Assembly: GCA_945873695.1 (NCBI GenBank)
Contig: CAMCDX010000006.1
Span: 1 to 36,250, forward strand
DNA: 36,250 nt
Origin: an uncultured Clostridia bacterium
Lineage (GTDB): Bacteria; Bacillota; Clostridia; Oscillospirales; Oscillospiraceae
Reading direction: 5' to 3'
This document shows positions 1 through 36,250 of this stretch, one piece after another. The position numbers and the translations under genes were made by a program. The notes under the pieces were generated by a model, which saw nothing but the letters and a program-made list of their open reading frames with translations, was not told the DNA's origin and made no database searches. Each line of letters begins with the position of its first letter. Position 1 is the first letter of the stretch.

Positions 1-53
1 CCCCCTGCAAAATGCAACCCAGTTGCTTTAAGCAGTGGTTTTTCGACAAGCTG
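1..53 (+). repeat. 221-bp terminator-associated element, copy A (3' end only)
   Basis: These bases match the last 53 bases of the complete element at 9236-9456 without a difference and end with the same terminal repeat (TTTTTCGACAAGCTG). The rest lies outside the window. As in the other copies, a terminator-type hairpin (54-78) starts directly at the element edge. The left-hand duplicate of that hairpin cannot be seen. Confidence 0.9.
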
Positions 54-7802: not shown

Positions 7803-9206
7803 ATGCTGCATTTCAAATCCGTTACGAAACAAGATGGAACCAAGCTTCGGAAATATTATCAGAACTGTAATTACGGTCTGTGTGAATACTCTGTCGGCAC
7901 AAAGCTGATGTGGCGGACCTCCCTCCATCCCACCTGGACGGAGGTGGCCGGCTGCCTGGTGGTCCGCAATACCCACAACGGGCAGGTACTTTATGATTAT
8001 CCCGTCCCCGGCCCCGAGGGGGACGAGGACGCCGCCCTGGAGGCCATCGAAAACGACTGCCTGGAGCGGAACGTCCCTCTGGTGATCTCGGTGGTGCCGG
8101 AGTGCAAGGCCCCCCACCTGCTGAGCCGGTATCCCTACTGCCGGGTCAGCAATATCCGCACCTGGCGGGACTACGTCTACTACTGCCAGGACCTGCAGCT
8201 CTTTGCCGGCCGCCGGTACTCTGGTCAGCGGAACCACATCAACAAGTTCCGCTCCAAATGGCCCGACGCCCAGTTCCGCCAGCTGACGGCAGCGGACCGG
8301 GAGGTCATTCAGCGGTTCTGGGCGGACTATGAGGCGGAGTTCCCCAAGGGGGACAACGCCAAGGCCCGGGACGAGCTGAATCTGGCCAAGAAGATGCTGA
8401 ACATGCTGGACAAGCCCTGGTTCGTGGCAGGCGGCATGTTCGACGGCGACCGGCTCATCGCCCTGTCCCTGGCGGAAAAGTGCGGCGAGACCCTCATCAT
8501 CCACATCGAAAAAGCGCTGTATTCCTACGCCGGCGTTTACCCCACCCTGGTCCAGGCCTTTGCCGGTGCCTTTGGCCAGGGGTGCCAGTGGATTAACCGG
8601 GAGGACGACGCGGCGGACCGGGGCCTGCGGACCTCCAAGCTGCAATACGGCCCCGCCAAGCTGGCGCCCAAATACCGCTTCGACCCCCAGAACGAGCTGC
8701 TGACCTACGTGGACACCATCCCGGAGCTGAAAACGGAACGGCTGACCCTCTCCGCCCTGACGGAGGCGGACATCCCCGCCTACAATGCCCTGGTGCTGGA
8801 CCAGGACCGGAACCGGTGGTGGGGCTACGACGATGTAGGCGGCCTGGGCGGCCCGGTGGAGGAGCGGAGCTTTTTCAATGTGGCGGACCGGGATTTCCAG
8901 GCCCGGCAGGCGGTGAATTTCGCCGTCCGGGTGGACGGCAAGCTCATCGGCGAGGCGGTGCTCTACCGCTTCAACTGCCGGGGCGACGCCGAGCTGGGCT
9001 GCCGGATCGACGCGGCCCACGCCGGCCAGGGCTACGGCACCGAGGCCTTCGCCGCCGTGGCGGACTGGGCGCTGTACAAGGTCCACCTGAACCGGGTGGT
9101 GGCCAAGTGCTTCAAGGAGAATCAGGCCTCCTACAAGATGCTGTCCTCCTGCATGCGGAAGACCGGCAGCGACGACACCTTCTTCTATTTTGAAAAGCTG
9201 GTATGA
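7803..9206 (+). CDS. DUF2156 (PG-lysyltransferase-like) and GNAT acetyltransferase fusion
   Basis: Residues 1 to about 300 match the DUF2156/LPG_synthase_C fold found in the cytosolic part of lysyl-phosphatidylglycerol synthases; recognisable segments include QRNHINKF and WINREDDA. Residues from about 305 (ELKTERLTLSALTEADI) form a RimJ/RimL-like GNAT domain with the acetyl-CoA loop GQGYGTEA at about 408-415. No membrane segments are present, so it is not an MprF flippase. Each half is a GNAT-superfamily acyltransferase fold, so the protein may carry two transferase activities; the substrates are unknown. The ribosome binding site is poor: AAGG lies only two bases before the ATG. Confidence 0.75.
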   Translation: MLHFKSVTKQDGTKLRKYYQNCNYGLCEYSVGTKLMWRTSLHPTWTEVAGCLVVRNTHNGQVLYDYPVPGPEGDEDAALEAIENDCLERNVPLVISVVPECKAPHLLSRYPYCRVSNIRTWRDYVYYCQDLQLFAGRRYSGQRNHINKFRSKWPDAQFRQLTAADREVIQRFWADYEAEFPKGDNAKARDELNLAKKMLNMLDKPWFVAGGMFDGDRLIALSLAEKCGETLIIHIEKALYSYAGVYPTLVQAFAGAFGQGCQWINREDDAADRGLRTSKLQYGPAKLAPKYRFDPQNELLTYVDTIPELKTERLTLSALTEADIPAYNALVLDQDRNRWWGYDDVGGLGGPVEERSFFNVADRDFQARQAVNFAVRVDGKLIGEAVLYRFNCRGDAELGCRIDAAHAGQGYGTEAFAAVADWALYKVHLNRVVAKCFKENQASYKMLSSCMRKTGSDDTFFYFEKLV

Positions 9207-9208
9207 AA

Positions 9209-9235
9209 AAAGGACGAGGAATCTTCCTCGTCCTT
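9209..9235 (+). repeat. 27-bp direct repeat (left), a terminator hairpin without its T-tract
   Basis: The sequence is a palindrome (arm AAGGACGAGGAA, centre TC) and is repeated exactly at 9457-9483 on the far side of the element. It lies directly behind the stop of the DUF2156-GNAT gene. Only two T residues follow the stem before the element starts, so as it stands this copy is a poor terminator for the plus-strand gene. Confidence 0.9.
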
Positions 9236-9456
9236 CAGGCTGTCGAAAAAGTCCGACGGACTTTTTCGACGCCTTCACAATACCTCGATTTTCTGGCCGC
9301 TCTGCTGCCCGAAAATCTGCCGCTGCGCGGCGCAAACGCCTGCTGGCGCAGGCTTTTTGCAGGCATTTGATTCCACACGAAGGGGCTCCCGCCCCCTCGT
9401 ACTCCCCCTGCAAAATGCAACCCAGTTGCTTTAAGCAGTGGTTTTTCGACAAGCTG
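9236..9456 (+). mobile_element. 221-bp terminator-associated element, copy B (complete)
   Basis: The element starts CAGGCTGTCGAAAAA and ends in the inverse TTTTTCGACAAGCTG, giving 15-bp terminal inverted repeats with two mismatches. The inner left end is a perfect 13-bp hairpin (9242-9254 with 9258-9270, loop GAC), which repeats the terminal motif. Further GC-rich hairpins lie inside (for instance GCCTGC-TGGC-GCAGGC and GGGGC-TCCC-GCCCC). It is flanked by exact 27-bp direct repeats that are a whole terminator stem-loop. It is 220/221 identical to the inverted copy at 26012-26232. Size, end repeats and flanking duplications resemble a MITE. It carries no convincing gene. Confidence 0.85.
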
Positions 9457-9487
9457 AAAGGACGAGGAATCTTCCTCGTCCTTTTTT
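9457..9487. terminator. Terminator hairpin with T-tract, right-hand duplicate beside copy B
   Basis: This is the second copy of the 27-bp repeat followed by six T residues, so it is the working terminator for plus-strand transcripts. The T-tract runs into the stop codon of recD2 (TTA at 9486-9488 on the plus strand). For minus-strand transcripts leaving recD2, the matching functional arrangement is the left duplicate preceded by six A residues. Confidence 0.85.
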
Positions 9488-11705
9488 ATCTCTCTGAAGG
9501 CTCGTCCCCGCTGTGAGCCAGGCGCCACCGAAGGCCGGAGTACCGCCGCTGCTGGCGGTCGTTGGCGGCCATGGCCCGGATGGCGGCGTCGTCCCCCACC
9601 ACGATCAAAAGCTCTCTGGCCCGGGTCAGGGCGGTGTACAGCACCCCCCGGACCATCAGGGACTGGGCCGCCGGCATGGCGGCCAGCACCACGCAGCGGT
9701 ACTCGCTGCCCTGGGCCTTGTGGACCGTCTGGGCGTAGGCCAGGTCCACCTCGTTGAGCATCTCGGCGCCATAGACAGCGGAGCGCCCGTCAAAATCCAT
9801 CACAAGCCACTCGCGGGAGTCGTCGATCTGAACGATCTTCCCCACGTCGCCGTTGAACATGCCGGTGCCCACGGTGCCGTCGGCCTTCTCCCAGACCACC
9901 TCGTAGTCGTTCCGGGTCTGCATGATCCGGTCCCCCTCCCGGAACAGCCGGTCGCCCCACTGGATCTCCCGCCGGTCCGGCCGCCTGGGGTTCAGGGCCT
10001 CCTGGAGGCAGCGGTTCAGGTTGATCGTGCCGCTGGGTCCCTTCCGGGTGGGGGTCAGCACCTGGATCTGGTCCGCCGGGACCCCCATCTTCTCCGGCAG
10101 GCGGGTCTTGCACAACTCCACCACCGTGGACACGGTGCGCTCCCCGTCCCGGCGGCACATGAAAAAGAAGTCCCCCTGGTCGTTGGTCAACCGGGGCGGC
10201 TCGCCGCTGTTCACCGCGTGGGCGTTTCGGATGATGGCGGACTCCGACGCCTGGCGGAACACCTCCCGCAGGAACACCGTCTCGATGCGGCCGCTGCGGA
10301 TCAGGTCAGAGAATACGTTTCCCGCCCCTACGGAGGGCAGCTGGTCCGCGTCCCCCACCAGCACCAGCCGGGTGCCGGGCCGCAGCGCCCGCAGCAGGGC
10401 GGAGAACAGCGTGAGGTCCACCATGCTCATCTCGTCCACGATGACGGCGTCCGCTTCCAGCGGCTCCCGTTCCGATTTCGTGAAGGTCACCTGGTGGGTG
10501 ACCTCGTTCCAGCTCATCCCCAGCAGCCGGTGGACGGTCTGAGCCTCCATGCCGGTGAGCTCGCTCATCCGCTTGGCGGCCCGCCCCGTGGGCGCCGCCA
10601 GCACGATGTCCAGCCCCATCTTCCGAAACAGGGCCACGATGCCCCGGACGGTAGTGGTCTTGCCGGTGCCGGGGCCGCCGGTGAGGATCAGCACGCCGGT
10701 CCTGGCCGCCAGCTCCACCGCCTGCCGCTGCTGGGGAGCGTAAGAGATCCCCTGCTCCCGCTGGATCTCGTCGATGGTCTTGGCCGCCTGGCCGCTGCGG
10801 TCCGCGTCCACGGCCAGCAGACCGTTCAGCCGGGCACAGGCGGAGGCCTCCGCCTCCCACAGACGCCGCAGGTAGCAGGCCTCCTCCCCGGACACCCGCT
10901 CCCGGACCACCGCCCCCCGCCGGACCAGCTCGTCCAGCGCCTGTTCCACCAGATCCGGGCCGCAGTCCAGCAGCTGGCAGGTGGCGGCCACCAGCTTGTG
11001 CTGCGGCAGGAACACGTGGCCGTTGTTTTCGTTGTGGCTCAGCTCAAAGGTCACCGCCGCCTGGAGCCGCTCCTGACTGTCCAGGGCGATGCCCATGCTC
11101 ATGGCGATCTCGTCGGTGACAGAGAACTCCACGCCGCAGCTGTCAGTGGACAGCAGATAGGGATTTTCCCGTACCATGTCCAGCGCCGCCTCGCCGTACT
11201 GCTGGCGCAGCTGCATGGCCAGGATGGGCGGCAGCTGGTACCGGGCCAGGAATTCCATCAGCCGCCGCAGGCCCATGTGGTGACGGAAGCTCTGGGCGAT
11301 CTCCTGGGCCTTTTTGGCGGTGATTCCCTTGATCAGACTCAGCTGCTCCGGCTCCCGCTCCAGGATGTCCAGGGTCGCCCCCCCGAATCGGTCCACGATG
11401 CGCCGGGCGGTGGCGGGGCCCACGCCCTTGCAGACGCCGGAGGAGAGGTAGCTGAAGATCTCCTCCTCATCCTCCGGCAGGCTCCGCTCCAGTTCGGTTG
11501 CCCGCAGCTGCTCCCCGTGCTGGGGGTGGGTCTCCCACACCCCGGACACCGTCAGGTGCTCCCCCGGGGCCACACAGGGGACGCACCCCACCACGGTGAT
11601 GACCTCCCCCTCCTCGGTGAGGAGGCGCAGGACCGTATAGCCGCTTTCGGCGTTTTGAAAAATGATGCTATGTACGGTGCCCTCACAGCAGGTCAGCTCT
11701 TCCAT
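9486..11705 (-). CDS. recD2: RecD2-type ATP-dependent DNA helicase
   Basis: The 739-residue protein has the RecD2 layout: an N-terminal OB-like region, tandem helix-hairpin-helix motifs (about 85-135, including VGPATARRIV), and an SF1B helicase core. Walker A is GGPGTGKT (343-350) and Walker B is VIVDEMSMVD. The C-terminal motif VHKAQGSEY belongs to the UvrD_C_2 domain. RecD2 unwinds DNA 5' to 3' and acts in repair and replication-fork handling in bacteria that lack RecBCD. The ATG follows AGAGGAC. It lies 16 bases after a small membrane gene with which it probably forms an operon. Its stop codon sits in a T-tract of the duplicated terminator. Confidence 0.95.
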   Translation of the reverse strand: MEELTCCEGTVHSIIFQNAESGYTVLRLLTEEGEVITVVGCVPCVAPGEHLTVSGVWETHPQHGEQLRATELERSLPEDEEEIFSYLSSGVCKGVGPATARRIVDRFGGATLDILEREPEQLSLIKGITAKKAQEIAQSFRHHMGLRRLMEFLARYQLPPILAMQLRQQYGEAALDMVRENPYLLSTDSCGVEFSVTDEIAMSMGIALDSQERLQAAVTFELSHNENNGHVFLPQHKLVAATCQLLDCGPDLVEQALDELVRRGAVVRERVSGEEACYLRRLWEAEASACARLNGLLAVDADRSGQAAKTIDEIQREQGISYAPQQRQAVELAARTGVLILTGGPGTGKTTTVRGIVALFRKMGLDIVLAAPTGRAAKRMSELTGMEAQTVHRLLGMSWNEVTHQVTFTKSEREPLEADAVIVDEMSMVDLTLFSALLRALRPGTRLVLVGDADQLPSVGAGNVFSDLIRSGRIETVFLREVFRQASESAIIRNAHAVNSGEPPRLTNDQGDFFFMCRRDGERTVSTVVELCKTRLPEKMGVPADQIQVLTPTRKGPSGTINLNRCLQEALNPRRPDRREIQWGDRLFREGDRIMQTRNDYEVVWEKADGTVGTGMFNGDVGKIVQIDDSREWLVMDFDGRSAVYGAEMLNEVDLAYAQTVHKAQGSEYRCVVLAAMPAAQSLMVRGVLYTALTRARELLIVVGDDAAIRAMAANDRQQRRYSGLRWRLAHSGDEPSER

Positions 11706-25984: not shown

Positions 25985-26011
25985 AGGGACGGTCCCCGCG
26001 GAACCGTCCCT
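25985..26011. repeat. 27-bp direct repeat (left) beside element copy C
   Basis: This is a terminator palindrome (arm AGGGACGGT) behind the protease gene. It is repeated at 26233-26259 with one base different near the centre (A here, G there), which breaks one pair of the 12-bp stem. Four A residues precede it, and only the element follows, so it works as a terminator for minus-strand transcripts rather than for the protease gene. Confidence 0.88.
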
Positions 26012-26232
26012 CAGCTTGTCGAAAAACCTCTGCTTAAAGCAACTGGGTTGCATTTTGCAGGGGGAGTACGAGGGGGCGGGAGCCCCTTCGTGTGGAATCA
26101 AATGCCTGCAAAAAGCCTGCGCCAGCAGGCGTTTGCGCCGCGCAGCGGCAGATTTTCGGGCAGCAGAGCGGCCAGAAAATCGAGGTATTGTGAAGGCGTC
26201 GAAAAAGTCCGACGGACTTTTTCGACAGCCTG
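26012..26232 (-). mobile_element. 221-bp terminator-associated element, copy C (complete, inverted)
   Basis: It is the reverse complement of copy B with a single substitution (at 26030, near the CAGCTTGTCG end). Both have exactly 221 bases between exactly 27-base duplications, yet the duplicated terminators are unrelated in sequence. This shows the element moved as a defined unit into two independent terminators in opposite orientation. The near identity implies recent movement or strong homogenisation. Confidence 0.88.
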
Positions 26233-26263
26233 AGGGACGGTCCCCGCGGGACCGTCCCTTTTT
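26233..26263. terminator. Terminator hairpin with T-tract, right-hand duplicate beside copy C
   Basis: A 12-bp perfect stem with loop CGC is followed by TTTT on the plus strand and ends two bases before the HAD stop codon (26265-26267). It is the functional terminator for protease transcripts that have read through the element. Confidence 0.85.
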
Positions 26264-36172: not shown

Positions 36173-36199
36173 AAAGGCTTGGAGCTGAGCTCCAAGCCT
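36173..36199. repeat. Terminator hairpin (left) beside element copy D
   Basis: An 11-bp perfect stem (AGGCTTGGAGC arm, loop TGA) lies at 36175-36199, right after the GNAT stop, and the element begins at the next base. By analogy with copies B and C a duplicate should lie beyond the window. Confidence 0.85.
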
Positions 36200-36250
36200 C
36201 AGGCTGTCGAAAAAGTCCGACGGACTTTTTCGACGCCTTCACAATACCTC
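36200..36250 (+). mobile_element. 221-bp terminator-associated element, copy D (5' end only)
   Basis: The first 51 bases of the element are identical to copy B, including the terminal repeat CAGGCTGTCGAAAAA and the 13-bp inner hairpin. The window ends inside it. Confidence 0.9.

Follow-up and report, generated by a model that had tools for sequence, protein, structure and literature searches.

A 221-bp non-autonomous element in a Clostridia genome is flanked by duplicated whole hairpins that resemble transcription terminators

Introduction

DDE transposition normally duplicates its target over a short stagger whose length is nearly constant. Some members of the IS1182 family have a palindromic target (Siguier et al., cited in PMC5678879 and PMC4923244), and PMC4923244 describes hairpin targets, several of them confirmed terminators, with blunt deletion for TnSha1 and IS1272. 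Duplication of the target is drawn as a hypothetical outcome in pathway b of Fig. 13 in PMC5678879, whereas the IS1272 data of the same authors showed deletion. According to PMC12056078, the action of IS1182-related transposases may or may not involve duplication or deletion of the target, and these enzymes possibly recognize a DNA structure. PMC9208149 finds IS1182 over-represented between convergent genes, an excess that fits terminator targets.

Here we describe an element that combines hairpin targeting with duplication of the hairpin. It is short, multicopy, bounded by inverted repeats and devoid of a transposase, as bacterial MITEs in general are according to the excerpts of PMC10969869, in which no MITE with duplication of a terminator hairpin is described. 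In contrast to the element, ISPse1 and ISCaa15 of the IS1182 family have tabulated direct repeats of 4 bp (PMC3281130 and PMC3196728, tabulated entries). Hairpin targeting in the IS1182 family is known; in the literature searched here, outside ISfinder, whole-hairpin duplication was found only as the hypothetical pathway in PMC5678879.

Results

Structure of the element and its surroundings

The window, i.e., the whole stretch of DNA analyzed here, comprises 36,250 nucleotides and corresponds to contig C6 of the Dysosmobacter-type genome G000 (1.77 Mb in 138 contigs, 78% complete), an assembly that is broken at the repeats of the element. On the plus strand, the 221-bp element occupies positions 9236..9456, and no ORF of at least 80 aa is confined to it. 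Its left terminal inverted repeat CAGGCTGTCGAAAAA (9236..9250, plus strand) and its right terminal inverted repeat CAGCTTGTCGAAAAA (9442..9456, minus strand) are identical at 13/15 positions, and the left end additionally forms a subterminal hairpin with 14-bp arms (9242..9270, plus strand). The element is enclosed by two identical 27-nt repeats without assigned strand (9209..9235 and 9457..9483), whose starts are 248 nt apart and each of which contains a perfect dyad with 12-bp arms; the right copy is followed by a T tract and is thus terminator-like. These data bear out the initial annotation, which had read the locus as a 221-bp element with imperfect 15-bp terminal inverted repeats between exact 27-bp duplications of a hairpin. 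The upstream gene, encoding LPG_synthase_C and GNAT domains (7803..9206, plus strand), stops 2 nt before the left hairpin, and the 3' end of a convergent RecD2-like helicase gene (9486..11705, minus strand) lies 2 nt beyond the right one.

A second full copy is located at 26012..26232 on the minus strand, between 27-nt hairpins at 25985..26011 and 26233..26259 that differ from each other by 1 base. Both window ends carry partial elements: one at 1..53, followed by a hairpin at 54-78, and one at 36200..36250, preceded by a hairpin at 36175-36199. The hairpin at 54-78 matches a hairpin beside a partial element at the start of contig C51 (L039) except for one A in the loop, and the two contig ends are likely a pair. 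Being short, multicopy, bounded by terminal inverted repeats and free of a transposase gene, the element has the features of a MITE.

Copies and flanking hairpins in the same genome

G000 contains at least 36 full-length 221-bp copies, 35 of which are 98-100% identical to the window copy, while L035 shows 84% identity. The element-end pattern CAGNNTGTCGANAAA, which ends of related IS can match as well, occurs at 194 sites (94 forward, 100 reverse) versus 3 for the backward-read pattern; among the 100 places listed, many are found close to where a contig ends or at most about 60 bases from where one starts. Together with the partial elements at both window ends, these counts suggest that G000 carries close to a hundred copies.

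In 28/36 copies the same terminator-like hairpin is found on both flanks, with a sequence that differs from locus to locus: the direct repeats, 15-36 bp long where exact, are exact in 21 copies and have 1-3 mismatches in 7, and 8 copies are without a match. Thus, when the copies are collected, as the initial annotation had advised, the duplication is not generally lacking. With a stricter end definition, which retains 35 copies, 20 pairs are exact and 27 match at ≥85%. When left and right flanks of different copies were paired as a control, an exact repeat of ≥12 was detected in 1/1260 pairings, and this single match (L009/L010) comes from two contigs having 1502 bp of flank in common. A hairpin adjoins 65/70 flanks of the 35 copies versus 8/3931 random window positions, which, together with the 1/1260 mismatched pairings, shows that hairpin flanking is not a product of chance; with these 65/70 flanks, the palindromic-target trait of IS1182 members is found here as well. 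Among the 27 copies with matching pairs, the 10 bases at the right end contain at least 5 T in 22/27, at least 5 A stand at the left end in 23/27, and either tract is present in 26/27. By these features, the flanking hairpins look like transcription terminators.

The 8 unmatched copies are heterogeneous. In L002, L017, and L028 the stem is nearly the same and the loop is different, and the hairpin of L006 is truncated near a contig end. L009, whose left flank is shared over 1502 bp with that of another copy, probably arose through recombination or misassembly. The remaining 3 of the 8 are the first L012 copy, L027, and L030, which fit none of these cases. At three loci (L018 in G000, L228 and L303 in the related genome G013), the flanking hairpins have the same stem and one loop is an exact or near reverse complement of its counterpart; L018 was counted among the 7 near-exact pairs despite its inverted loop.

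A separate arrangement is seen on G000 contig C41 (9327-11986), where two inverted element copies (L017, L002) surround a 2.1-kb segment with a 667-aa ORF containing a Sulfatase domain. The four hairpins of this arrangement have the same stem and different loops. G013 has a single hairpin between the two outer genes, and no homologue of the 2.1-kb segment was found in the 1.98 Mb of G013 compared. The arrangement may represent a composite transposon.

Copies and orthologous sites in relatives

Element matches, some of them short and weak, were found in 13/37 genus genomes searched, G000 included, and in 0/23 genomes searched outside the genus. The 127 loci used contained 23 copies in relatives with both ends, of which 8 have exact repeats and 17 match at ≥85% (control 0/506). 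Some relatives carry rearranged ends. In two G013 copies (L043, L055) the left-end hairpin is extended to a 41-bp palindrome consisting of the terminal repeat and its inverted copy, and the element therefore holds a third end that faces inward. In G007 (L077, 1120-1150), a 31-bp palindrome made up solely of an element end and its inverted copy directly follows a hairpin.

Orthologous sites were compared mainly in G013, a related species of which about 1.98 of 3.2 Mb were covered and in which few sites could be judged empty; for most other copies, either the two flanks are not conserved together in G013 or they lie outside the compared sequence. The sites judged empty have one hairpin and not two, in line with the expectation of the initial annotation, which had named a single hairpin as the empty state; they are few and come from another species. 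G013 has a single hairpin at the L008 site, to which each of the two G000 hairpins can be aligned, with conservation of 1000 bases of the right flank and of only 80 bases, hairpin included, on the left. Likewise, both hairpins of the second L031 copy align to one G013 hairpin, with the right flank conserved and the left not, and the L004 site has one homologous hairpin with conservation of the left flank only. At L021, the second copy of the window, both neighboring genes are conserved in G013 and their junction holds one hairpin of unrelated sequence. For the first copy of the window, no simple empty site was found: in the relatives with matches to both neighbors on one contig (e.g., G024, G029, and G007), the two are kilobases apart.

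Both species have the element at one and the same gene junction (L015 in G000, L303 on contig C11 of G013), where their hairpin sequences differ. This would reflect either parallel insertion or a joint change of both hairpins.

Autonomous IS1182-family elements beyond the genus

GTDB genomes were scanned for IS1182-family loci, and the best 80 of 525 confirmed stretches were analyzed. In 53/80 loci, both sides had an end of the expected type; the remaining 27 were left out of the count, as one end was absent, lay at a contig edge or had another form, and at least L140, L160, and L177 among these do show hairpin repeats. Exact hairpin repeats of 19-34 bp flank 44 of the 53 elements (from the best 80 of 525), and 47 have pairs matching at ≥85%, compared with 0/2756 in a mismatched-pair control based on identical ends. 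The end motif was defined after inspection of the loci, and an element with several candidate ends was represented by the pair that gave the longer repeat. The 6 elements without a matching pair include L190, whose flanks are masked. Several loci come from the same species, so that not all lineages are independent; their hairpins nonetheless differ. Whole-hairpin repeats surround autonomous IS1182-family elements with similar ends in many Bacillota and in one Rhizobium. In the sampled IS1182 branch, the long duplication is the usual state (44/53, from the best 80 of 525).

Six plasmid regions were additionally read for the flanks of IS1182-family elements. The element on Enterococcus faecium DO plasmid 2 has a 27-bp hairpin repeat, the Rhizobium element a 26-bp hairpin repeat with one mismatch, and the Acetoanaerobium element, as judged by eye, a 24-bp palindrome that recurs unchanged on its other side. 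L326, an ISEfa7-annotated copy on a plasmid of E. faecium, lacks a matching hairpin pair although its ends are perfect. The ISCfr1 copy shows a repeat of at most 6-8 bp and no whole-hairpin duplication, and no hairpin repeat was detected at the Roseivivax element, on a separate long branch of the tree. Judging from these flanks and from the 4-bp repeats tabulated for ISPse1 and ISCaa15, the whole-hairpin repeat is a property of part of the IS1182 family and not of all of it.

Two further sites of autonomous elements were searched for in relatives. At the Lysinibacillus L182 site the right flank alone is conserved in the relatives searched, and L. sphaericus has one similar hairpin about 60 bases away, as judged by eye. 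No empty site was found for L201 in the relatives searched.

Geometry of the duplicated hairpin

The dyad lies at most 1 nt from the repeat center in 71/73 exact cases (20 from G000, 8 from relatives, and 45 from IS). The initial annotation had described the duplication as exactly the stem-loop around the dyad center of one hairpin; the centering on the dyad extends to nearly all exact cases. Longer repeats go with wider G.C-closed stems (r = 0.56, p = 3e-7, n = 73), with coefficients of 0.65 for the G000 copies and 0.54 for the IS; the 8 MITE repeats of relatives taken alone give no significant correlation (r = 0.46, p = 0.25). The repeat exceeds the G.C stem by 2-6 bases in 57 of the 71 centered cases, and mostly it extends 1-3 bases beyond the outermost G.C pair in either direction. 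An A at the start together with a T at the end of the repeat was observed in 36/44 IS, 14/20 G000 copies, and 6/8 copies of relatives. The duplication varies between 15 and 36 bp with stem length, which a fixed stagger would not do. That its length tracks the stem points to recognition of an extruded hairpin over recognition of a symmetric sequence.

Candidate transposases within the genus

The 78% complete G000 assembly yielded 0 transposase matches to PF13751, PF01609, and NF033551. Two IS1182-family N-terminal fragments in G025 (L089, L111) begin with 18-19 bases identical to the left end of the element, contain a subterminal hairpin similar to that of the element, and both adjoin a terminator-like hairpin. 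The right end of the element is less similar to the ends of the IS1182 fragments (about 15 bases). C-terminal fragments in G025 (L082) and G062 (L091) terminate in CAG(G/C)CTGTCGAGAAACCCGG..., and the end of G000 contig C55 consists of 52 nt of an IS-type end that agrees with the L091 end at 51/52 positions and stands beside a hairpin. Transposase fragments with similar ends score 69-190 bits, under the family cut-off of 270, as partial pieces do. A transposase gene beside the same ends, for which the initial annotation had suggested looking, is represented by the G025 fragments, with their first 18-19 bases, and was not found in G000.

The genus also contains an intact IS1182-family element (L083 in G071), whose transposase scores 447 bits with NF033551 (cut-off 270). 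It carries a 25-bp hairpin repeat on both sides, and its ends are somewhat different from those of the MITE. An AlphaFold2 model of this transposase reaches a mean pLDDT of 64.6, and Foldseek with this low-confidence model returned no match at E ≤ 0.001, the weak matches listed being mostly retroviral integrase cores. Outside its ends, the window element does not convincingly resemble any of the eleven loci of the genus with IS1182-type matches that were compared. The shared ends and the identical behavior of autonomous relatives would be what links the element to the IS1182 family.

Four further transposase loci were considered as a source and rejected. The loci of an IS1634-like (L079) and an IS5-like (L074) transposase from relatives have no such ends, and two IS1182 elements of the same genus (L084, L085) have other ends and no hairpin repeat that we could find.

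Discussion

The element and its hairpin duplication are real and general. As to how the element moves, we infer from the sequence that it is likely a MITE mobilized in trans by an IS1182-family DDE transposase. For the transfer itself, we lean towards a structure-guided reaction in which the target stem would set the stagger, so that each insertion of this IS1182 branch or of the MITE would copy the whole terminator, one for each neighboring gene. An IS1182-type transposase would join the element ends to the 5' feet of the extruded hairpin, and repair of the gaps after strand transfer would leave a hairpin copy on each side. Extrusion of the hairpin we infer from the geometry only. Strand transfer at the 5' feet with gap repair would correspond to pathway b in Fig. 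13 of PMC5678879 and would be the simplest mechanism. The initial annotation had proposed a non-autonomous element whose transposase recognizes the symmetric terminator and cuts around it. The non-autonomous nature and the hairpin target (28/36 copies) stand, whereas the recognized feature is more probably an extruded hairpin, since the length of the duplication follows the stem.

The palindrome could instead be read as ordinary double-stranded DNA by a symmetric dimer that makes a staggered cut around it without extrusion. The dyad symmetry of the repeat is what such a dimer would see, and the usual A at the start and T at the end could be a weak sequence preference; we nevertheless regard this as unlikely, as the stagger extends from 15 to 36 bp and tracks stem length, and the stems vary between loci. 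It is considerably less probable that the element inserted beside or between two pre-existing hairpins, or that the hairpins became identical later through gene conversion. The L015 junction, filled in G000 and G013 with different hairpins, could be one old insertion whose hairpins changed together, and the inverted loops in some pairs also speak for such a history. Against it stand the single hairpin at the G013 sites judged empty and the exact pairs at 44/53 IS1182-type insertions (from the best 80 of 525).

Replacement of the stem-loop in the manner of IS1272, with removal of the target hairpin and flanking hairpins that belong to something else, has a precedent in this very family, as IS1272 targets hairpins including terminators and reportedly deletes them (PMC5678879 and PMC4923244). 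The flanks of the element already contradict it, with a locus-specific hairpin on both sides in 28/36 copies, and we consider it very improbable. Least credible of all is a recombinase or group II intron type of mechanism with the hairpin as attachment site. Group IIC introns and IS1111-type elements are hairpin-associated, and this association is all that speaks for such a mechanism, as no data here support it; neither a target duplication nor terminal inverted repeats resembling those of DDE IS1182 elements are known as features of these systems. A group IIC intron was rejected because the hairpin is present on both sides instead of unduplicated on one, a distinction that the initial annotation had drawn, and IS1111-type recombination was rejected in view of the IS1182-like terminal inverted repeats and the target duplication.

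Because the duplication of 15-36 bp follows the target stem, the proposed structure-guided mechanism is directly testable. Insertion would be mild and copies could accumulate because each neighboring gene keeps a hairpin; terminator targets with a hairpin left on each side might thus explain how a selfish element could reach what looks like nearly a hundred copies in 1.8 Mb with little harm. On the practical side, the duplication might be of use for matching up and ordering contigs when an assembly is fragmented.

Among described systems, the closest is the IS1182 branch with ends like CAGACTGTAGACAAA (e.g., on E. faecium DO plasmid 2). Its ends start with CAG..T and contain GA.AA, as here, and its members have a hairpin target and a whole-hairpin duplication of 19-34 bp (44/53, from the best 80 of 525), again as here. 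They differ from the window element in carrying a transposase gene and measuring about 1.5-2 kb, whereas the window element is non-autonomous and 221 bp long. With IS1272 and TnSha1, as described in PMC5678879 and PMC4923244, the element has in common hairpin targets that are often terminators and are chosen without sequence specificity; these two reportedly delete target hairpin sequence without duplication, whereas the window element has its hairpin duplicated. If the structure-guided reading is true, the duplication would be the mirror image of the stem-loop deletion by IS1272, within one transposase family.
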